38,382 nt of DNA from the NCBI GenBank assembly GCA_003557085.1, contig PWPR01000188.1:1-38382 (forward strand), in the 5' to 3' direction. This document shows, in pieces, positions 15,697 to 25,978 of this stretch. Position numbers and translations under genes: made by a program. Each line of letters begins with the position of its first letter. Position 1 is the stretch's first letter. A model generated the notes under the pieces. The model saw nothing but the letters and a program-made list of their open reading frames with translations, did no database searches and was not told where the DNA came from. This stretch comes from Clostridia bacterium (lineage in GTDB: Bacteria > Bacillota > UBA994 > PWPR01).

Positions 15697-16551
15697 TTAA
15701 CTAGTCTTAAGCCTTGGATCTAATACATCTCTTAACCAATCACCTACTAAATTAATTCCTAGTACTGTTAACATAATGGCAATGCCAGGAAAGGCAGTAA
15801 CCCACCAAGCACTAGTGATATAGCCTCTTCCATCAGCAAGCATACTTCCCCATGTAGGGATTCTTGATTCAACACCTAAGCCTAAGAAAGTTAATGATGC
15901 TTCTGCGATTATCATATTTGCAACTCTTAAAGTTCCTACAACCACAATAGTGGGAAAGACATTTGGTAATATATGACCAAAGATAATCTTCCCATTCTTT
16001 TGCCCAAGTGCTTTAGCTGCTTTTACATACTCAAGCTCTCTTAATAAAAGCACCTCTCCTCTTACTAATCTACTATACATCACCCAGCCAGTAATACTTA
16101 ATACTAGTATTACATTTCTTAATCCAGGTCCTAAAACAGACATGATTGCTAATGCAAGTAAAATAAATGGAAATGCAAGTTGAACTTCTGTTAGTCTCAT
16201 TAAGAAACTATCTAGAAAACCTCTATAATATCCCCCAAGTAACCCAAGGACAGTTCCAAATATCCCTGATAGCAAAACAGTTATTATTCCAACCAATAAT
16301 GATATTCTCGTACCATATATGATTCTACTTAAAATATCTCTTCCTAAATGATCAGTGCCTAGTAAGTGCTCACTACTACCTTCATCATCCCAAGATGGTG
16401 GCAAGAGCCGCTTATTCAAATCTGACTCATTTGGATCGTAAGGAGAAAAGACTGGTGCTAATATCGCACTAACCACTACTATTAAAATAATGATAGCACC
16501 AGCCAAAGCTGTCTTTCTCTTAATCAGCATTTTGAGAGTTTTGTTCTTCAT
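15697..16551 (-). CDS. oppC: Oligopeptide/dipeptide ABC transporter permease (OppC/DppC-like)
   Basis: GTDHLGRDILSRIIYGTRISL and EAA-loop-like EYVKAAKALGQKNGKIIFGHILPN. Confidence 0.92.
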   Translation of the reverse strand: MKNKTLKMLIKRKTALAGAIIILIVVVSAILAPVFSPYDPNESDLNKRLLPPSWDDEGSSEHLLGTDHLGRDILSRIIYGTRISLLVGIITVLLSGIFGTVLGLLGGYYRGFLDSFLMRLTEVQLAFPFILLALAIMSVLGPGLRNVILVLSITGWVMYSRLVRGEVLLLRELEYVKAAKALGQKNGKIIFGHILPNVFPTIVVVGTLRVANMIIAEASLTFLGLGVESRIPTWGSMLADGRGYITSAWWVTAFPGIAIMLTVLGINLVGDWLRDVLDPRLKTS

Positions 16552-16560
16552 AATTCACAC

Positions 16561-17478
16561 CTACTCATATCTTATTCTTGGATCTAAGACTGTATATATA
16601 ACATCAGTAAAAATGTTTATAAATACAATACTTACAGCAAGGATAAACACACCCGCTTGTACTATTGCAATATCTCTATTTTGGATAGCTTGCAACATAA
16701 ACCTACCCACTCCTGGCCAAGCAAAAATTGTTTCTGTGATTACCGCCCCACCCAAAAGTGTGCCCAACTGTAGAGCTAAAATTGTAATAACTGGCAATAC
16801 AGCATTTCTCAAGGCATGTTTTAAGACAATCCATTTATGCCTAACACCTTTTGCTCTAGCTGTTTTTATATAATCTTGTTGCATGATTTCTATCATCCTT
16901 GATCGAAGCATTCTTGCAATAGTAGCAGCAGTATATGCACCAACTGTAAATGCTGGTAGTAAAAGATGCTGCCATGTTCCTCTTCCTGTAATTGGCAATA
17001 AACGATACTTCACTCCTGCAACATATAGCAACATTAAGCCTAACCAAAACACCGGCATTGATTGCCCAATAAGTGCTAGTATTGAGCCTATATAGTCAAT
17101 AATCGTGTTAGAAAACACTGCCGTAACTAATCCTAGTGGGACTGCTATTGCCAAGGCAATCAAAACACTAGCTAAGGTTAGCTCAATTGTTGCAGGCATT
17201 CTTTCAATTATTAAGCCCATAGCAGGTTGATTATGATGTAGAGAATTTCCAAAATCTCCTCTCACAGCTCCTGATAAAAACCTAAAGTATTGAATGTATA
17301 AAGGATCATTAAATCCTAAGCTCTCCCTCATTGCTTCAGCTACCTCCGGTGCTGTGTCCATTGGAAGAAGTAATGCTATAGGGTCTCCAGATAAATACAT
17401 TAACATGAATACAATCAAGGAAACTCCAAATAAAACAATTAATGCATTACGTAGTTTGCGCAGCAAAGATTTCGACAT
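16561..17478 (-). CDS. oppB: Oligopeptide/dipeptide ABC transporter permease (OppB/DppB-like)
   Basis: DYIKTARAKGVRHKWIVLKHALRNAVLPVIT motif; adjacent to oppC. Confidence 0.92.
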   Translation of the reverse strand: MSKSLLRKLRNALIVLFGVSLIVFMLMYLSGDPIALLLPMDTAPEVAEAMRESLGFNDPLYIQYFRFLSGAVRGDFGNSLHHNQPAMGLIIERMPATIELTLASVLIALAIAVPLGLVTAVFSNTIIDYIGSILALIGQSMPVFWLGLMLLYVAGVKYRLLPITGRGTWQHLLLPAFTVGAYTAATIARMLRSRMIEIMQQDYIKTARAKGVRHKWIVLKHALRNAVLPVITILALQLGTLLGGAVITETIFAWPGVGRFMLQAIQNRDIAIVQAGVFILAVSIVFINIFTDVIYTVLDPRIRYE

Positions 17479-18451
17479 TTTTTCTTCCTCCTATCTTGTC
17501 AGAATAATGACAAGCTACTTGATGGTCGTTATCAATTTGTTCAAGGTTTGGCCTGCTATCTACACACAAGTCTGTAGCCATATGACATCTTGTCCTAAAG
17601 CCACATCCTGTTGGTGGAGAAATAGGATTAGGCATTTCTCCTGAAAGAATAATTTCTTCTCGTTTAGCTAGCGGATCAGCTACAGGAACAGCTGATAATA
17701 AAGCTTTTGTATATGGGTGCTTAGGTTTTAGGAATATATCTTCAGTACTTGCTATTTCTACAATTTTCCCTAAATACATTACAGCTAATCGATCACATAT
17801 TTGCCTAACTACACCTAAATCATGTGCTATAAATAAATAAGAGAGGCCAAACTCTTCTTTCAAATCATTTAATAGATTTATAATCTGTGCTTGTACAGAT
17901 ACATCTAGTGCAGAAACTGGTTCATCACAAACAATAAATTTTGGATTTACTGCTAACGCTCTTGCAATTCCAATCCTTTGTCTTTGACCACCACTGAACT
18001 CATGAGGAAACCTATTTTTACTTTCTGAAGGGAGACCAACAATATCTAAAAGCTCATCGATCCTTCGCTGCTTATCTTTTCCTTTAGCAATCTTATGAAT
18101 CTCTAGTGCTTCACCAATAGTTTTCCCAATCTTCCATCTAGGATTAAGAGAAGCAAAAGGGTCTTGAAAAACAATTTGCATATCTTTTCTATGTTTTTGC
18201 ATTTCTCGTTGTTTAATTTTTGTGATATTTTTCCCATTAAACAATATCTCTCCGCTTGTTGGCTCAAGTAGCCTTAATATAGCCATTCCAGTTGTTGATT
18301 TTCCACTACCTGACTCACCAACAAGCCCTAATGTCTCTTTTTCATTTACAAAAAAATCTATGTTATCAATTGCCTTGACATAAGCAGTCTTATTTAAGCC
18401 AATTTTTACGGGGAAATACTTTTTCAGTCCCTTTACTTCTAGTATTCTCAC
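17447..18451 (-). CDS. oppF: Oligopeptide ABC transporter ATP-binding protein (OppF-like)
   Basis: Walker A GESGSGKST, FSGGQRQRIGIARAL, Walker B FIVCDEP; oligo_HPY-type C-terminus with CGFRTRC. Confidence 0.93.
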   Translation of the reverse strand: MRILEVKGLKKYFPVKIGLNKTAYVKAIDNIDFFVNEKETLGLVGESGSGKSTTGMAILRLLEPTSGEILFNGKNITKIKQREMQKHRKDMQIVFQDPFASLNPRWKIGKTIGEALEIHKIAKGKDKQRRIDELLDIVGLPSESKNRFPHEFSGGQRQRIGIARALAVNPKFIVCDEPVSALDVSVQAQIINLLNDLKEEFGLSYLFIAHDLGVVRQICDRLAVMYLGKIVEIASTEDIFLKPKHPYTKALLSAVPVADPLAKREEIILSGEMPNPISPPTGCGFRTRCHMATDLCVDSRPNLEQIDNDHQVACHYSDKIGGRKNVEIFAAQTT

Positions 18452-19428
18452 TTTGTAACCTCCTTGATAAGACTACTTGCATAAAAACAAGCTACTTCTT
18501 GATTTCCTATTTTTTCTAGCATTGGTTCTTCTACTACACATTTTTGACTTGCAAACTCGCATCTTGGAGAAAACCGACAACCCTTAGGCATATTTTCTAA
18601 AGTAGGCACTGTGCCTCTAATTTGAACTAAACGTCCCATTCTCTTTTTTACATCCGGTACAGACTTAATTAATCCTTTTGTATAAGGGTGCTTAGGGTTG
18701 TAGTAGATATTTACAACCGAACCCATTTCAACTATTTTCCCACTATACATAACAGCTACTTTATCAGCTACTTCAGCAACGACACCTAAATCATGTGTAA
18801 TAAATAAAACTGCTGTATTAAGATCTTTTTGAAGCTTTTTAATTAGCCTCAAAATTTGTGCTTGAATTGTTACATCTAAAGCAGTAGTAGGTTCATCAGC
18901 AATTAAAAGCTTCGGATTACATGAAAGTGCCATAGCAATCATAGCTCTTTGTCTCATCCCACCACTCATTTGGTGAGGATATTGTTTGGCTCTGGTGGCG
19001 GGATTTGAAATTCCCACTTGATCCATTACTTGTACTGCTTGAGCTAATGCCTCTTTCTTTGCTAGACTACTATGAATTCTAATTGCTTCTGCTATTTGCT
19101 CACCAACCCTAAATACAGGATTGAGGGATGTCATCGGTTCTTGAAAAATCATAGCAATCTCTTTACCTCTGATCCTTGCCATTTTTTTTTCATTCAACCT
19201 AGCAAAATCTAGGCCATCTAATATGATTTCACCATCAACAATTTTTCCTGGCTTTGAAATTAACTTCATCATAGCATGTGCAGTTGTGCTTTTTCCACAA
19301 CCAGACTCTCCTACAATTGCTAGAGTTTCACCTTGTTCTATCTCAAATGAAACCTCTTTTATAGCCTCTATAGTTCCAGCATCTACTTCATAATTTACTG
19401 ATAAATTGTTTACCTTTAATAATGTCAT
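18448..19428 (-). CDS. oppD: Oligopeptide ABC transporter ATP-binding protein (OppD-like)
   Basis: Walker A GESGCGKST, MSGGMRQRAMIAMAL, LLIADEP; CRFSPRC C-terminus. Confidence 0.93.
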   Translation of the reverse strand: MTLLKVNNLSVNYEVDAGTIEAIKEVSFEIEQGETLAIVGESGCGKSTTAHAMMKLISKPGKIVDGEIILDGLDFARLNEKKMARIRGKEIAMIFQEPMTSLNPVFRVGEQIAEAIRIHSSLAKKEALAQAVQVMDQVGISNPATRAKQYPHQMSGGMRQRAMIAMALSCNPKLLIADEPTTALDVTIQAQILRLIKKLQKDLNTAVLFITHDLGVVAEVADKVAVMYSGKIVEMGSVVNIYYNPKHPYTKGLIKSVPDVKKRMGRLVQIRGTVPTLENMPKGCRFSPRCEFASQKCVVEEPMLEKIGNQEVACFYASSLIKEVTK

Positions 19429-19475: not shown

Positions 19476-21032
19476 TTATTCATTCCAGTCAATATTAAAA
19501 ACTCTTATTATTTCATCAGGCCTAGGACTCCAAGATATTCTTTGACTTAAACCATATAGGTCTACTTGCTGATATAAAGGAACAAACGCAGCTTGCTCAT
19601 GAATTATCTCTATTACCTGATGATAAAGACTTTCTCTAGCTTGATCATCCATTGTTCTTTTTGACTCATTTAGCAACTCATCTAACACAGGATTGTAATT
19701 GCTATCTTGGTAATATGCTGTTATTAAATTAGTGTTTAACCAAAAATCTAAAGTTGAGCCCGCATCAAATGTTGAGCTTCCCCAACCTATTAACCATACA
19801 TCATGCTTTTGTTGGCCCTGCAAAGTATTTGTTGCATAACTTCCCCATTCTTCAAAAGATAGATTCACATCAAACCCTACACTTCCTAATTGGGCAGCAA
19901 TTGCTTCTGCGACTTCTTTGTCCATTGGATATCTTCCTGAAGGAGATCCCATATTAATCACTATGCCTTCTGCTATTCCTGCATCAGACAACAATTCTTG
20001 AGCTCTTTCTAGATTAAAACCATATGGTTCTAAGTTACTATCAAAACCAAGGTCAAAATTAGCTACAGGTTGAGCAGTCGGAGTTGCTCTTCCAGAAAAG
20101 ATATTATTTACAATTGAATCAACATCTATTGCATAATTTATAGCTTGCCTAACTTTTACATCACTTACAAGTTGATTTTTTGTTGTGAAGACCAGCATAA
20201 TAAATCTGGTACTATTTGTTTGTCCGACACTTAAGCTTGCATCATTTTCTACTTCACTTACTTGATGAGGCGGTAGATTGACAATTATATCTGCTTCACC
20301 AGCCTGTAAAGCCATAACTCTTGCAGCTGACTCTGGAACTGGTTTAAAAATTACTTTTTTAACACTAGGAGAACCTTTCCAGTAGTCTTCATTCGCCACT
20401 AATGTAACGTGCTCATCTTTAACCCATCTTTCAAACTTATATGGCCCTGTACCTATAGGCTCGCTAGCAAATGTTTCTTGTCCAACCTCTTCAATATAAT
20501 GCTTAGGAACAACTCGTAATGCTGCCAATCTCACGAGTAAAAGTGGATAAGGTTCTGCTGTTTTTATTATCAGCTCAAAATCGTCCTCTATAACAACCTC
20601 ACTTATTGCACTGTAATTACCTATTTGTGAGCTATTATTTTCAGGGTTTTGAATCCTTTCTATAGTAAATTTCACGTCGTTGGCAGTAAACTGCACACCG
20701 TCATGAAAAAAAACATCATCTCTTAAATAAAACTTCCACGTAGTCTCATCTTGCATTTCCCAGCTACTTGCTAAAGATTCTACTATGTTCATCGAATCGT
20801 CTTGGTCTAATAATGAATCAAACATTTGCCTGTCAACATTTGCTGTTGGTGTTTCTGAATGCATATTTGGATCCATCGTTGTTGGGTCAACACCTTGCAA
20901 AACAGTCAACACTTTCTCTGTATCATCTCCATTATTGTCACCTTCTGTTGCAGCTTGGCATCCTGTAAAAATTAATACTACTACTAACATTAAAATAACT
21001 AATCTATTCCTATTAAAAAGAGTTCTGGTCAT
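19476..21032 (-). CDS. Peptide ABC transporter substrate-binding lipoprotein (SBP1)
   Basis: SBP_bac_5-type protein, lipobox LIFTGC; heads the opp operon. Confidence 0.93.
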   Translation of the reverse strand: MTRTLFNRNRLVILMLVVVLIFTGCQAATEGDNNGDDTEKVLTVLQGVDPTTMDPNMHSETPTANVDRQMFDSLLDQDDSMNIVESLASSWEMQDETTWKFYLRDDVFFHDGVQFTANDVKFTIERIQNPENNSSQIGNYSAISEVVIEDDFELIIKTAEPYPLLLVRLAALRVVPKHYIEEVGQETFASEPIGTGPYKFERWVKDEHVTLVANEDYWKGSPSVKKVIFKPVPESAARVMALQAGEADIIVNLPPHQVSEVENDASLSVGQTNSTRFIMLVFTTKNQLVSDVKVRQAINYAIDVDSIVNNIFSGRATPTAQPVANFDLGFDSNLEPYGFNLERAQELLSDAGIAEGIVINMGSPSGRYPMDKEVAEAIAAQLGSVGFDVNLSFEEWGSYATNTLQGQQKHDVWLIGWGSSTFDAGSTLDFWLNTNLITAYYQDSNYNPVLDELLNESKRTMDDQARESLYHQVIEIIHEQAAFVPLYQQVDLYGLSQRISWSPRPDEIIRVFNIDWNE

Positions 21033-21156
21033 GAAAAATTCCTCCTATTATTTTTTGATTTTGAGTTCTACTAGTTTCGAAAGTTGATACCAGAGCTTTA
21101 ATACCCTGGAAAAAAGACAATAACATTAAGTCAGATAATGCAAGGCCACTTTCCAT
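21013..21156 (-). CDS. Putative 47-aa leader peptide upstream of and overlapping SBP1 start
   Basis: SD AAGGGGGTGAT then ATG: MESGLALSDLMLLSFFQGIKALVSTFETSRTQNQKIIGGIFHDQNSF*; start context matches the other two SBP leaders. Confidence 0.5.
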   Translation of the reverse strand: MESGLALSDLMLLSFFQGIKALVSTFETSRTQNQKIIGGIFHDQNSF

Positions 21157-21192
21157 GACCATCACCCCCTTTATACAATTTATTAATTTAAA

Positions 21193-21460
21193 CAAAAAAC
21201 TCCGCCTCAGCTAAGAGACGGAGTATTATCCGTGGTACCACTCTTGTTCTAAAGTTTCCTTTAGCACTTAGTCAGACACAAGCATGTCCGCTTCTCTATA
21301 ACGGGAGAAATCCGTTTACCTTACTTATTTCAGGTTCAAAGCTCAAAGGGGATATAATTTTCTATTCATGTACTGGCTCACACCAACCACCAGCTCTCTG
21401 AAACATTTATAGAGAATTCATTGTCCTTGTCATCGCTTAATTTATTTTGCTTAAATTTAA
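21193..21460 (-). ncRNA. T-box leader D, predicted specifier AUC (Ile), specifier at 21351-21353
   Basis: AGAGAGCTGGTGGTTGGTG Stem I distal motif, T-box AGAGTGGTACCACGG, terminator CTCCGTCTC...GAGGCGGAGTTTTTT; specifier by alignment (13 nt ending in GAGC). Confidence 0.9.
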
Positions 21461-21465
21461 TAAGC

Positions 21466-21494
21466 ACTATATCATGACGAGCTACCTTCGTCAA
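21466..21494 (-). promoter_or_regulatory. Promoter of T-box D
   Basis: TTGACG - 17 nt - TATAGT. Confidence 0.7.
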
Positions 21495-21515
21495 GCTTTT
21501 TTTTCTTTACTCTAA

Positions 21516-21636
21516 TAAAAAATACTCCATCTCAATAAAGAGACGGAGTATTTATCCGCGGTACCACTCTTGTTCTAAAGCTATGCTTTAGCACTTTACT
21601 AGACTCTAGGTGCAAAAGGAGTTTTGTCGCAGTAAT
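21516..21636 (-). ncRNA. Headless T-box module 1 (Stem III + antiterminator/terminator, no Stem I)
   Basis: GTGCTAAAGCATAGCTTTAGAACAAGAGTGGTACCGCGG then ACTCCGTCTCTTTATTGAGATGGAGTATTTTTT; too short after terminator C for a Stem I. Confidence 0.8.
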
Positions 21637-21889
21637 AAAAAAATCCGTCTCAATTAAGAGACGGATAATATCCGCGGTACCACTCTAATTCCGATTTAAT
21701 CGGCACTTTTCCAGCTAAAGTCTGCTCCCTTATAACGGAGGGAATCCGCTCACCTTACTATTTTTCAGGCTTGTGCTCAAGAGTGAGTTCATTCTTTCAT
21801 CTGTACTACTTTCCACCAACCAGTAGCTCTCTATAACACTTGAAAGAAATACTATTCTCCGTCACTGCAATTATTCTTGCTTAAATTTA
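21637..21889 (-). ncRNA. T-box leader C, predicted specifier CUC (Leu), specifier at 21785-21787
   Basis: AGAGAGCTACTGGTTGGTGGAAAGTAG, TGAA-CTC-ACTCTTGAGC, T-box AGAGTGGTACCGCGG, terminator ATCCGTCTC...GAGACGGATTTTTTT. Confidence 0.9.
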
Positions 21890-21895
21890 ATAAGC

Positions 21896-21924
21896 AATAT
21901 ACCATGACGCGGTACCTGCGTCAA
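21896..21924 (-). promoter_or_regulatory. Promoter of T-box C
   Basis: TTGACG - 17 nt - TATATT. Confidence 0.7.
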
Positions 21925-21949
21925 GATTTTTTTCAAAAAATAATAGTTT

Positions 21950-23464
21950 TTATTCATTCCAGCTAATTTCTGCAACTTTAATTACCTCGTCACTCCTTGG
22001 CTTCCAATTAATTCTATTACTACTACCATAAATATCCTTTTGCTGATAAAGGTTTACAAAGGGAATATCATTTTGAATTTCTTCTAGTATTTTATGATAT
22101 ATTTCTTCTCTTATAGTATTATCTAAAGTGCTAAGTCCTTGATCTATCAAATTGTCAATATATTCATTTCTGGACTCACTTAACCTGTATTGTGACATGT
22201 TCTGACTTGTGTGAAGCCATTGTTTAAGAGTAGTTCCTGCATCAAAAGTAGCACTTCCCCATCCAATGAGCCAAATATCAGCATCAATTTGCCCAGATAT
22301 TATACTTCCTACATAGGCACCCCATTCAATAAACTGTAAATCTACTTCTAAACCTACATAACTTAGGTCTGCTTGAATAGCTTCTGCAACCTCTTTGTCC
22401 ATGGAATACCTTCCCGAAGGAGCATGCATAACAATTGTCTCATTCACTGCCCCTACTTTAGTTAGTAGTTCAATTGCTCTTTCTGGATCATAACCAAGTG
22501 GTTCTATATTAGGGTTATAACCTAAGTCAAAATTGCATACTGGCTGAGTACTAAGTATTGCATTATCTCCTAATATATTACTTATTATTGATTCTGTATT
22601 TATAGCTAAATTAATTGCTTCTCTCACTCTTACATCATTGACTAAATCTCTTTTTATGGTTTGTGCAAGCATTATAAATCTTGTACTATCAACACTTCTT
22701 GTTGAAATGTTATCTGCTGAATTAATCTCATCAATTTGGTGAGGTGGCACATTTGTTATAATATCTGCTTGATTTGCTTGTAATGCCATTACTCTTGCAG
22801 AGGACTCTGGTACTGGTTTAAACAAAACTTTTGCTATGTCTGTTTTCCCTTTCCAATAGTTGTCATTTCTAACTAATACTATTTCTTCATCTCTAACCCA
22901 TGACTCTAACTTATATGGTCCGCTTCCTATAGGATTTATGCTAAACTCTTGATTACCTACCTCTTCAATATAGTGCTTTGGGACAACTCTTAACTCAGCT
23001 AACCTGCTTAGTATTACTGGGTTAGGATACTTAGTTTCTATTATTACCTGATAATCTGATATTTCTTCAACGCTATTAATGCTGTCATAATAGCCTCTTC
23101 TAGGACTGTTCATTTCTGGGTCTAGAATTCTTTCAATCGAGTACTTAACATCTTTTGCTGTAAGACTTACACCATCGTGAAAAAAAACTTCTTCTTCAAT
23201 AGTTATTAGCCATCTTGTCTCACTTAAGTTCTCATAACTTTTTGCAATATTATTTACTATTTCCATGGAACTATTTCTAGATAGTAAAGTGTCAAATATT
23301 TGATACTCTACATTGCCTGTTGGTGTATCTGTGTGCATAATTGGATCTAAGGTTGTTGCATCTACACCTTGTAAAACTACTAGTGTTTTTTCTACTACAT
23401 TGTCATGACTGCATGCTATTAAGATTAAAGTTGAAATTAGCAATATCATAATAAATTTTTTCAT
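21950..23464 (-). CDS. Peptide ABC transporter substrate-binding lipoprotein (SBP2)
   Basis: Paralogue of SBP1, lipobox TLILIAC. Confidence 0.92.
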   Translation of the reverse strand: MKKFIMILLISTLILIACSHDNVVEKTLVVLQGVDATTLDPIMHTDTPTGNVEYQIFDTLLSRNSSMEIVNNIAKSYENLSETRWLITIEEEVFFHDGVSLTAKDVKYSIERILDPEMNSPRRGYYDSINSVEEISDYQVIIETKYPNPVILSRLAELRVVPKHYIEEVGNQEFSINPIGSGPYKLESWVRDEEIVLVRNDNYWKGKTDIAKVLFKPVPESSARVMALQANQADIITNVPPHQIDEINSADNISTRSVDSTRFIMLAQTIKRDLVNDVRVREAINLAINTESIISNILGDNAILSTQPVCNFDLGYNPNIEPLGYDPERAIELLTKVGAVNETIVMHAPSGRYSMDKEVAEAIQADLSYVGLEVDLQFIEWGAYVGSIISGQIDADIWLIGWGSATFDAGTTLKQWLHTSQNMSQYRLSESRNEYIDNLIDQGLSTLDNTIREEIYHKILEEIQNDIPFVNLYQQKDIYGSSNRINWKPRSDEVIKVAEISWNE

Positions 23465-23522
23465 TGAATTTTCCTCCTAAATTTTTCTCTCTAATTGACT
23501 TGATAAAAAAAGGAAGTTCCAT
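23403..23522 (-). CDS. Putative 39-aa leader ORF upstream of and overlapping SBP2 start
   Basis: SD GAGGAGTGAT then ATGGAA: MELPFFIKSIREKNLGGKFNEKIYYDIANFNFNLNSMQS*; shared start context with the other SBP leaders. Confidence 0.4.
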   Translation of the reverse strand: MELPFFIKSIREKNLGGKFNEKIYYDIANFNFNLNSMQS

Positions 23523-23552
23523 TCACATCACTCCTCGCTATTAAGGCTAAAA

Positions 23553-23630
23553 CAATAACCCCGTCTCTCATATGAGAGACGGGGTTAGCCGCGGTACCAC
23601 TCTCTTTCCTAAAATAATTTAGGCAACTGA
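23553..23630 (-). ncRNA. Headless T-box module 2
   Basis: Stem III CCTAAATTATTTTAGG, AGAGTGGTACCGCGG, AACCCCGTCTCTCATATGAGAGACGGGGTT; no Stem I between it and terminator B. Confidence 0.8.
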
Positions 23631-23667
23631 GAAAATATCTATATCGATAGGTCTTAGTGGCCTTATT

Positions 23668-23931
23668 AAAAAAGCCCCGTCTCAATTAAGAGACGGAGCT
23701 CATAGTCCGTGGTACCACTCTTGTTCCCAATTCTTGGGCAACTCTATCAGATACATAATATCTTCTTCCTTGATATCGGTGGAAATCCGCTTACCCTACT
23801 TAATTTCAGGTTCGTGCTCGGAGAGGAATTCACTAGAACATTTCGACGCTGGCTTTCACCTTCCCAGCTCGCTTTAGTCTTAACCCACTAGTTACTATTT
23901 CTCGTCATTGCTTTAGCTCTTTATAATATTG
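23668..23931 (-). ncRNA. T-box leader B, predicted specifier UUC (Phe), specifier at 23826-23828
   Basis: GCGAGCTGGGAAGGTGAAAGCCAGC Stem I, TGAA-TTC-CTCTCCGAGC, AGAGTGGTACCACGG, terminator CCGTCTCTTAATTGAGACGGGGCTTTTTT. Confidence 0.88.
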
Positions 23932-23937
23932 CTAAGG

Positions 23938-23967
23938 AATATATCATGCTTGAGGCACCATTGTCAA
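23938..23967 (-). promoter_or_regulatory. Promoter of T-box B
   Basis: TTGACA - 18 nt - TATATT. Confidence 0.65.
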
Positions 23968-23982
23968 GCATTCCTTAAATAT

Positions 23983-25509
23983 TTATTTCCATGAAGTCGT
24001 GAAAATATCTATTATTTCATCCCCTCTCGGTGTAAAGTTTACTCTGCTGCTAACTCCATATAGGTCATTTTGCTGATATAAGTTTATAAAAGCTACGTCT
24101 TTTACTACTTGCTCGATAATTTGCTCATAGAGTTGCTCTCTTAAGTTATCATCTACTGTTATTAAAGCTTCTTCTAATAAAGCATCTACCTTATTGTTTG
24201 TTTCTTCATCTACTCTGTAGTAAGCTGTTGGATTATTAGTATGTAACCATTGCAATAAAGTTGTCCCGGCATCAAAAGTAGCACTTCCCCAGCCAATTAA
24301 CCATAAATCTGCATCCATAGTTCCGTTAATAATCTTAGATACATAAGTATTAAAATCTTCAAACACCAAGTTCACTCTTACTCCGAGTGCTTCAATTTGT
24401 GCTGCAGCTGCTTCTGCCACTTCCTTGTCCATTGCATATCTTCCCGAAGGTGACTTAAGAGTTATTTCTAAATCATTTGCTCCCGCGTCTACTAGTAAGC
24501 TTTGTGCCTTCTCTAAATCATGCCCTCTATTAGTGATGTTTGAGTTATGACCTATATCAAAAACACTAATAATTTGATTAGAAACAGTGGCTTTTCCTGA
24601 GAAAATATTCTGCACAATACTTTCATTATCTACAGCCAGCTCTAAGGCTCTTCTTACTCTAACATCACTGACAGCTTCGTTTTCTGTTGTGAATGCAAGA
24701 AAGATTACTCTTGTAGAAGCAACCTCTGCTACACTTCCAACAGCTTCTATCTGCTCAATATTGTGTGGTGGTAAATTGGTTATTATGTCTGCTTCACCTG
24801 CTTGCAAAGCCATAGTTCTTGCTGCAGCTTCTGGTACAGGCTTAAAAGTCACTTTCTCAATTTCTGGAGCTCCTAAAAAATATTCTTCATTAGCAACTAG
24901 TTCTATTCGCTCATCTTTTACCCATGATTTGAATCTAAATGGACCACTTCCAATAGGCTCACTGGCAAATTTACTATTACCAACATTTTCTACATAATCT
25001 TTTGGAACTACTTCTAATGCTACAAGTCTACTTAGTAGAACTGGCGAAGGCTCCTTGGTAATGATTTTAAAACTATGTTCATCAATTATACTCACTTCAT
25101 CAATAAAGTCGTAATGACTAATTCTAGGACTTTGAGTGCTTGGGTCTACTATCCTCTCTATTGAGAATTTTATATCTTCTGTTGTCAGTGCGCTTCCATC
25201 ATGAAATTTGATATTTTCATGGATGGAAAACTCCCAACTAAGCTCATCTATCATATGCCATGATTTAGCTATGCCTTCTACGATATTCATTTCTACATCT
25301 CTTTTTAGTACTGTGTCAAAAATTTGATGACCAACATTTCCACTAGGTGTATCTGAATGCATTGCAGGATCAAGAGTAGTTGCATCAGTTCCTTGCAATA
25401 CTATTAACTCTCTAGAATTTTCAACTACTTCTTCTTGATTACATCCAAATAAAGACACACTTAAAACAAGTATCAAAACAGTTATTAAAACCTTAGTTAA
25501 TTTTTTCAT
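23983..25509 (-). CDS. Peptide ABC transporter substrate-binding lipoprotein (SBP3)
   Basis: Paralogue of SBP1/2, lipobox SVSLFGC. Confidence 0.92.
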   Translation of the reverse strand: MKKLTKVLITVLILVLSVSLFGCNQEEVVENSRELIVLQGTDATTLDPAMHSDTPSGNVGHQIFDTVLKRDVEMNIVEGIAKSWHMIDELSWEFSIHENIKFHDGSALTTEDIKFSIERIVDPSTQSPRISHYDFIDEVSIIDEHSFKIITKEPSPVLLSRLVALEVVPKDYVENVGNSKFASEPIGSGPFRFKSWVKDERIELVANEEYFLGAPEIEKVTFKPVPEAAARTMALQAGEADIITNLPPHNIEQIEAVGSVAEVASTRVIFLAFTTENEAVSDVRVRRALELAVDNESIVQNIFSGKATVSNQIISVFDIGHNSNITNRGHDLEKAQSLLVDAGANDLEITLKSPSGRYAMDKEVAEAAAAQIEALGVRVNLVFEDFNTYVSKIINGTMDADLWLIGWGSATFDAGTTLLQWLHTNNPTAYYRVDEETNNKVDALLEEALITVDDNLREQLYEQIIEQVVKDVAFINLYQQNDLYGVSSRVNFTPRGDEIIDIFTTSWK

Positions 25510-25547
25510 TATGATCTCCTTTTTTCTTTCTAATTAGTAGTTTTCAA

Positions 25548-25571
25548 TCAATAATAATATCCTTCTTCCAT
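25548..25571 (-). CDS. Putative 7-aa leader peptide MEEGYYY upstream of SBP3
   Basis: SD AAAAGGAGTGA, 6-nt spacer, ATG GAA GAA GGA TAT TAT TAT TGA; lies downstream of a Tyr-type T-box. Confidence 0.5.
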   Translation of the reverse strand: MEEGYYY

Positions 25572-25594
25572 TACTACTCACTCCTTTTAAATAT

Positions 25595-25665
25595 AAAAAA
25601 ACCTCCATCTCTTCAGAGACGGAGGTTCCGCGGTACCACCCTGATTCTGAGCTTTCACTCAACAC
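25595..25665 (-). ncRNA. Headless T-box module 3
   Basis: Stem III TGAGTGAAAGCTCA, CAGGGTGGTACCGCGG, AACCTCCGTCTCTGAAGAGATGGAGGTTTTTTT. Confidence 0.8.
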
Positions 25666-25710: not shown

Positions 25711-25978
25711 ATAAATAAAGTCCGCCTCATTTAAGAGACGGACAGATAATCCGCGGTACCACTCTTTTTCCAATTTCTTGGCTGCTTTTTGAATAGACTC
25801 CATTCATACCTTGATAACGGAGGCAAACCCGTTAGCCCTACTTTTTATTCAGACTAAAGCTCAAGGGTGTATTCATAATAAGCAGGGAGCGCCAGCTTCC
25901 ACCAACCCTGGCTCTCTATAGCTATGCAAATTATTACTCTTCCCTATCAACGCTACATTCTTTATTATCTTAAAGTTG
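25711..25978 (-). ncRNA. T-box leader A, predicted specifier UAC (Tyr), specifier at 25869-25871
   Basis: AGAGAGCCAGGGTTGGTGGAAGCTGG Stem I, TGAA-TAC-ACCCTTGAGC, AGAGTGGTACCGCGG, terminator GTCCGTCTCTTAAATGAGGCGGAC. Confidence 0.9.

Follow-up and report, generated by a model that had tools for sequence, protein, structure and literature searches.

Short leader ORFs carrying the T-box amino acid as putative translational sensors in Bacillota

Behind the T-boxes of three peptide-binding protein (SBP) genes we found short open reading frames (ORFs) that carry codons for the amino acid read by the T-box. We consider it likely (a probability of roughly two in three) that these leaders sense the tRNA of the T-box a second time, at the level of translation, similar to the arrangement of Bacillus rtpA, even if the stalling of ribosomes and its translational effect are inferred. 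This reading builds on observed features, namely the specifiers, the leader ORFs, the positions of the cognate residues, the conserved frame and Shine-Dalgarno (SD) sequence, and the absence of a terminator between leader and gene.

T-boxes and leader ORFs of the window

The Rfam search on the window (i.e., the whole stretch of DNA analyzed, 38,382 nucleotides) identified four full T-boxes (RF00230) on the minus strand, all above the gathering score and all meeting the criteria for membership of the family (a stem I with specifier, an antiterminator with UGGN, and a terminator). Matches to a snoRNA and to a Bacillus sRNA were far below threshold. The specifiers read off the Rfam alignment were UAC (Tyr), UUC (Phe), CUC (Leu), and AUC (Ile), the same that the preliminary description of this DNA had assigned. 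The three SBP genes, which lie 5′ of the importer ATPases and permeases on the minus strand, are SBP_bac_5 paralogues (SBP 2 and SBP 3 are 51% and 53% identical to SBP 1, respectively). The control region of each SBP has the same order: promoter-like site, T-box, leader ORF, and gene, with a second antiterminator/terminator unit, devoid of stem I, following the Tyr, Phe, and Leu T-boxes. The features are as follows:

25731–25959, minus strand: Tyr (UAC) T-box of SBP 1 (RF00230, 123.7 bits)
25589–25665, minus strand: second stem III/antiterminator/terminator unit without stem I, Tyr locus (TGGTACC motif at 25639, terminator 25629-25598)
25548–25571, minus strand: Tyr leader ORF MEEGYYY* (SD GGAGTGA; orthologous leaders MESDYYY and MEPDYAY)
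23983–25509, minus strand: SBP 1 (SBP_bac_5, PF00496)
23686–23917, minus strand: Phe (UUC) T-box of SBP 2 (RF00230, 99.8 bits)
23550–23650, minus strand: second antiterminator/terminator unit without stem I, Phe locus (motif at 23600, terminator 23587-23556)
23403–23522, minus strand: Phe leader ORF MELPFFIKS... (39 aa), overlapping the SBP 2 start (cognate residues at 5 and 6)
21950–23464, minus strand: SBP 2 (SBP_bac_5, PF00496)
21654–21874, minus strand: Leu (CUC) T-box (RF00230, 140 bits)
21515–21620, minus strand: second antiterminator/terminator unit without stem I, Leu locus (motif at 21567, terminator 21553-21520)
21466–21494, minus strand: promoter-like site directly 5′ of the Ile T-box (TTGACG-17-TATAGT, consensus match only)
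21211–21442, minus strand: Ile (AUC) T-box of SBP 3 (RF00230, 127.8 bits)
21013–21156, minus strand: Leu leader ORF MESGLALSDLMLL... (MESGLAL..., 47 aa), overlapping the SBP 3 start (start context identical to that of the G001 Leu leader MESDLGL)
19476–21032, minus strand: SBP 3 (SBP_bac_5, PF00496)
15697–19428, minus strand: Opp/Dpp/Nik-type importer, two ATPases and two permeases (Pfam, NCBIfam)

Neither the second units nor the promoter-like site before the Ile T-box had been mentioned in the preliminary description. At the Tyr locus, an upstream stem I motif was looked for before the second unit and none was found. Given the promoter-like site, transcripts reaching SBP 3 may start at the Leu promoter and pass both T-boxes, or start at the Ile promoter and pass a single one.

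Each of the three leaders has a strong SD sequence and is placed between the T-box terminators and the SBP start. The common start context that had been claimed for them is correct (GGAGTGAGTAGTA-ATGGAA, GGAGTGATGTGA-ATGGAA, and GGGGGTGATGGTC-ATGGAA), and from the ORFs and the specifiers we could confirm, at the Tyr, Phe, and Leu loci, that the leaders behind the terminators echo the T-box amino acid. As also anticipated, two of the three overlap the SBP start: the stop codon of the Phe leader lies 62 nt inside the SBP 2 gene and that of the Leu leader 20 nt inside SBP 3, while the Tyr leader begins 62 nt upstream of the SBP 1 ATG and ends 38 nt short of it. No terminator-like site was found between leader and SBP start at the three window loci; thus, these leaders are not attenuators of the trpL type.

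As for the genetic code, UGA is a rare but real stop codon in the window (2/30 genes); for the trpB mini-ORFs, UGA as Trp was considered as a possible reading.

Conservation of the leaders and of the cognate residues

The same cluster is present in two genomes of the same family, G001 and G002 (JANQLZ010000065.1). G001 carries five SBPs with Tyr, Phe, Leu, Val, and Ile T-boxes, and G002 the Tyr and Ile SBPs together with an orphaned Leu T-box. Tyr leaders occur in both (MESDYYYNNN... in G001 and MEPDYAYKT... in G002), and the Leu leader, with identical start context, is common to two genomes, the window's and G001 (MESDLGLKLK...). The G001 Val leader (MEKYLINVFSAFMV...) is weak, having no cognate residue before position 8, and no leader ORF was found at the G001 Phe, G001 Ile, and G002 Ile loci; the Phe leader is a single instance, its G001 orthologue being without one. 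Outside this cluster, T-boxes also precede the SBPs of G037 (L061, L063, and L064), in two cases with tandem antiterminators, but without a cognate leader, and in the f3 relatives G004 and G006, a T-box precedes oppD without a leader.

When the composition of the seven SBP leaders (three genomes) was matched to the specifiers in all arrangements, the observed one came out best (p = 0.0024); by four residue classes, the same test gave 1/24, the smallest value possible. In six of the seven, the leader frame continues uninterrupted across the SBP start; this frame is the same at all six loci, and the remaining two are closed. The distances covered were 58, 124, 106, 79, 121, and 106 nt (five different lengths), and the probability of such an open frame by dinucleotide shuffle was 0.41, 0.05, 0.015, 0.05, 0.03, and 0.03, respectively.

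To look beyond the SBPs, we started from a T-box survey in related genomes and then followed the downstream gene through the phylum. A Tyr-rich ORF was found behind a UAC T-box, 5′ of a gene of the tryptophanase/tyrosine-phenol-lyase family (NF009709 above cut-off, TIGR02618 below). The leaders at the lyase loci were DVDYPYPY (with a CTG start), MDVDYPY, MESDYDY, MDYYYYS, MDPDYYY, MEPGYND, and MDCDYYY, the latter found twice (GTG and TTG starts). A Tyr leader also precedes DAHP synthase: a pattern search retrieved it in two genomes (in one of them, tyrA follows), and the aroF search added three more (MEPDYAY and, twice, MESDYAY). Overall, the Tyr leader M[DE]x[DG]YxY was found at 16 loci, in seven families (f1, f3, f23, f32, f69, f93, and f117) and before three gene types. 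One further pattern match, in G258 (L298), was rejected for lack of a link to a T-box. Many Tyr T-box loci have no leader (e.g., L237, L239, L241, L252, L258, L260, L319-L321, L323, and L327-L331), which indicates that the second layer is optional.

All 16 Tyr leaders have Tyr at position 5 and an acidic residue at position 2; position 7 is Tyr in 14/16 and position 4 is D or G in 15/16. There is no conservation from residue 8 on, and the start codon varies among ATG, GTG, TTG, and CTG. The fact that residues 2 and 4 are conserved along with 5 and 7 could point to nascent-chain arrest of the TnaC type, in which the peptide would respond to the free amino acid and M[DE]x[DG] would be part of the arrest motif. 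We regard this as very improbable: with no more than seven residues, the conserved part would not extend far into the exit tunnel, one scaffold carries either Tyr or Leu, and residues 2 and 4 may merely reflect G-rich codons near the start.

At 14 of the 15 SBP/lyase loci, no stop codon closes the leader frame before the downstream RBS. The window Tyr leader does not reach it, nor do four of the five aroF leaders, which end 39–65 nt short of the gene. The preliminary description had proposed to look in relatives for a conserved start context, reading frame, and cognate residues, and the leaders passed this test: the Tyr leader recurs at the 16 loci of seven families, and the Leu leader, with its start context, in the two genomes.

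We then performed a rule-based scan (ASCERTAINMENT) on 194 T-box spacers, the criterion being a start codon with an SD 3′ of the terminator. Some SD-preceded ORF was present in 70 spacers. Where the second codon was GAN, the cognate residue stood at position 5 in 17/19 scan ORFs, a count that becomes 15/17 after dropping the two loci first found by motif pattern, and 8/10 if each family and residue class is counted once (with the f3 lyase leaders added by hand). The other SD-preceded ORFs in the scanned spacers showed no comparable trend by eye.

The match between leader and T-box amino acid could arise by chance, as the preliminary description had cautioned, because codons for Tyr, Phe, and Leu arise readily in AT-rich DNA: the window has a GC content of 34%, and each leader alone is only modestly unusual. 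However, the leaders recur over seven families despite changes between TAT and TAC and of the start codon, and at 10% per site, chance has a probability of about 1e-13 to 1e-15, or of 4e-7 if every family and residue class is counted as a single event. Chance as a general explanation is thus scarcely credible. In particular, the caution is refuted for Tyr and very unlikely to hold for Leu; for the single Phe instance, it is only weakened and cannot be excluded.

The position-5 count also bears on the idea that the leader does no more than load ribosomes or provide translational coupling to the downstream gene, its cognate residues being incidental. Although the strong SD and the overlap with the gene start at many loci would suit such a role, it would not account for a residue 5 that matches the specifier in 17 of 19 leaders; moreover, the overlapping frames mostly continue past the gene start instead of stopping at it, and four aroF leaders have no overlap at all. 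We consider this role improbable.

Pairing of leader and gene starts and the proposed mechanism

At the Leu/Ile locus, a long-range RNA duplex was predicted:

21011–21176, minus strand: leader initiation region (21176-21133) paired with the SBP 3 initiation region (21054-21011), −37.6 kcal/mol

Here the SD, the start, and the first eight codons of the leader are predicted to pair with the SD, the start, and the first codons of the SBP; none of 1,000 shuffles gave a duplex as strong, and the region had a z of −4.05. Leader and gene starts are likewise predicted to pair at G001 Leu (−25.2) and G001 Val (−20.7), and in the G372 aroF locus GGUUACAU at the leader start lies opposite AUGUAACC upstream of the aroF start. 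Own leader/gene pairs were stronger than swapped ones (SBPs, p about 0.003; 19 loci, p about 0.002); when the Leu/Val group was left out, p ranged from 0.01 to 0.11, depending on the span of sequence taken. The pairing was not significant at the Tyr and Phe SBP loci, and a general anti-SD structure in every SBP locus, suggested by the folds, was rejected on this basis. On these predictions, long-range pairing is limited to part of the loci, and it convinces only for Leu/Val and a few others.

According to the mechanism that we propose, uncharged cognate tRNA would first let transcription past the terminator(s) through the T-box. The first ORF of the read-through transcript would then be the leader, which has strong initiation signals and cognate codons at positions 5 and 7 (or 5 and 6). 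When charged tRNA is plentiful, ribosomes would traverse the leader and the SBP RBS, holding SBP translation down; at the Leu/Val loci, the RBS would additionally be engaged in base pairing with the initiation region of the leader. If charged tRNA runs short, ribosomes may stall at codons 5–7, covering the 5′ part of the leader, which is the strand otherwise pairing with the SBP RBS; the RBS would be left free and SBP translation would rise. The conserved leaders, frames, and cognate residues support the two-layer sensing put forward in the preliminary description, with stalling, occlusion, and unmasking remaining inferences. Also inferred is the direction of the effect, with stalling switching the gene on: it relies on geometry and on the rtpA precedent, without ribosome occupancy or reporter data.

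Since the window Tyr leader and four of the five aroF leaders end well before the gene, simple occlusion fails there, and another consequence of stalling, such as message protection or altered structure, must be assumed. The leader could even sense starvation and act on message survival alone, a ribosome stalled behind the terminator shielding the mRNA from 5′ nucleases or Rho. This would serve the loci where the leader ends well before the gene, but it leaves unexplained both the 14/15 SBP/lyase frames open to the downstream RBS and the pairing of leader and gene starts; we hold it to be unlikely.

Comparison with known systems

Chen and Yanofsky reportedly described, in 2003 and 2004, the rtpA (anti-TRAP) operon, in which a Trp T-box is followed by the leader peptide rtpLP. 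This leader stops just before the SD of the downstream gene, and transcription and translation of rtpA both respond to the same uncharged tRNA. To our knowledge, such double sensing of one uncharged tRNA by T-box and leader ribosome is known from essentially this one Bacillus gene. Our loci resemble rtpA in having a T-box and a cognate-codon leader ORF in tandem before the gene, which meets the rtpA-type criterion of such an ORF between T-box terminator and gene; in B. subtilis rtpA, the T-box operates in tandem with ribosome stalling that depends on the tRNA (PMC11255114, PMC4027176, PMC2896485). They differ in the amino acids (Tyr, Leu, Phe, and perhaps Val instead of Trp), in the genes served (uptake, lyase, and biosynthetic genes instead of a regulator), in the overlap of most SBP/lyase leaders with the gene start, and in the leader-start/gene-start RNA pairing of some loci.

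With trpL/hisL-type transcription attenuators, the leaders share a peptide with cognate codons, whereas the window terminators belong to the T-box, 5′ of the leader. The Leu/Val duplex suggests a likeness to ermC-type translational attenuators, a leader ribosome being proposed to free a sequestered RBS; unlike in ermC, where it is an antibiotic, the signal here would be uncharged tRNA, and the pairing, strong at the Leu/Ile, G001 Leu, and G001 Val loci, is not significant at the SBP loci for Tyr and Phe. In the open-access literature searched, we found no description of a Tyr leader peptide following a T-box, which is weak evidence of novelty, as subscription papers were mostly not covered.

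The rtpA-like arrangement is apparently modular and widespread. A fuller claim is, in our judgment, evenly balanced between right and wrong: that the scaffold M[DE]x[DG], with cognate residues after it at 5 and 7, forms a modular translational amino-acid sensor that is widespread in Bacillota as a second layer behind T-boxes, changing with the specifier on gene duplication (Tyr, Phe, and Leu), serving uptake, lyase, and biosynthetic genes, and with pairing as part of the switch at some loci. If the leaders work, they would represent a general design with a readable code, in which the amino acid can be read from residues 5 and 7. T-box specifiers could then be confirmed from the leader peptides, which would also help to assign the substrates of peptide-binding proteins, and the benefit of reading one signal two times, be it in gain, speed, or noise control, could be tested via two codon changes.

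Finally, several SBPs are the poorest, or among the poorest, of the set in their own amino acid; the Leu SBPs are not depleted in Leu. This depletion, for which no statistical test was made, fits proteins made during cognate starvation. In the window, the Tyr SBP contains 2.1% Y and the Phe SBP 2.1% F; in the relatives, the values are 4.1 and 5.3% I in the Ile SBPs and 5.1% V in the Val SBP.

Composite T-boxes and a Leu T-box without an SBP gene

In the Tyr, Phe and Leu control regions of the window, a full T-box is followed by a second stem III, antiterminator and terminator without a stem I of its own. The motifs of these second units are located as follows:

25639, window, second-unit motif of a composite T-box
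23600, window, second-unit motif of a composite T-box
21567, window, second-unit motif of a composite T-box

This composite layout may place two terminators under the control of a single specifier, and it is also present outside the window, in its family relatives G001 and G002 and in the further genome G037 (loci L057, L058, L063 and L064). In G002, no gene for a peptide-binding protein (SBP) lies between the Leu T-box (L058, 5960-6201) and the next T-box, which is an Ile one. Loss of its gene could have orphaned this Leu T-box; alternatively, it could represent a step towards the stacked Leu and Ile T-boxes of the window. Several of the SBPs, among those of the window and of L057 and L058, have a low content of the residue sensed by their T-box.

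Mini-ORFs between Trp T-boxes and trpB

A Trp T-box and a strongly initiated mini-ORF precede trpB at three loci:

G000:C111:19734 (L013), trpB Trp T-box
G001:1352126 (L115), trpB Trp T-box
G002:C51:28662 (L100), trpB Trp T-box

The mini-ORFs (MFKT*, MLYHW* and MFVNT*) all have UGA as stop codon, and ACC UGA ACU UGA is read in two of the three. At each locus, the Shine-Dalgarno (SD) sequence of the leader appears to pair with a segment upstream of the trpB SD, with sequences that differ among the loci.

Tyr T-boxes upstream of a lyase gene

In many Bacillota, Tyr T-boxes precede a gene of the tryptophanase/tyrosine-phenol-lyase family (L235-L268), usually regarded as catabolic. At one of these loci (L236, genome G010), the Tyr leader MDVDYPYLAKPY shares the frame of the lyase gene with no stop between them, and therefore it could be an N-terminal extension of the lyase rather than a separate leader.
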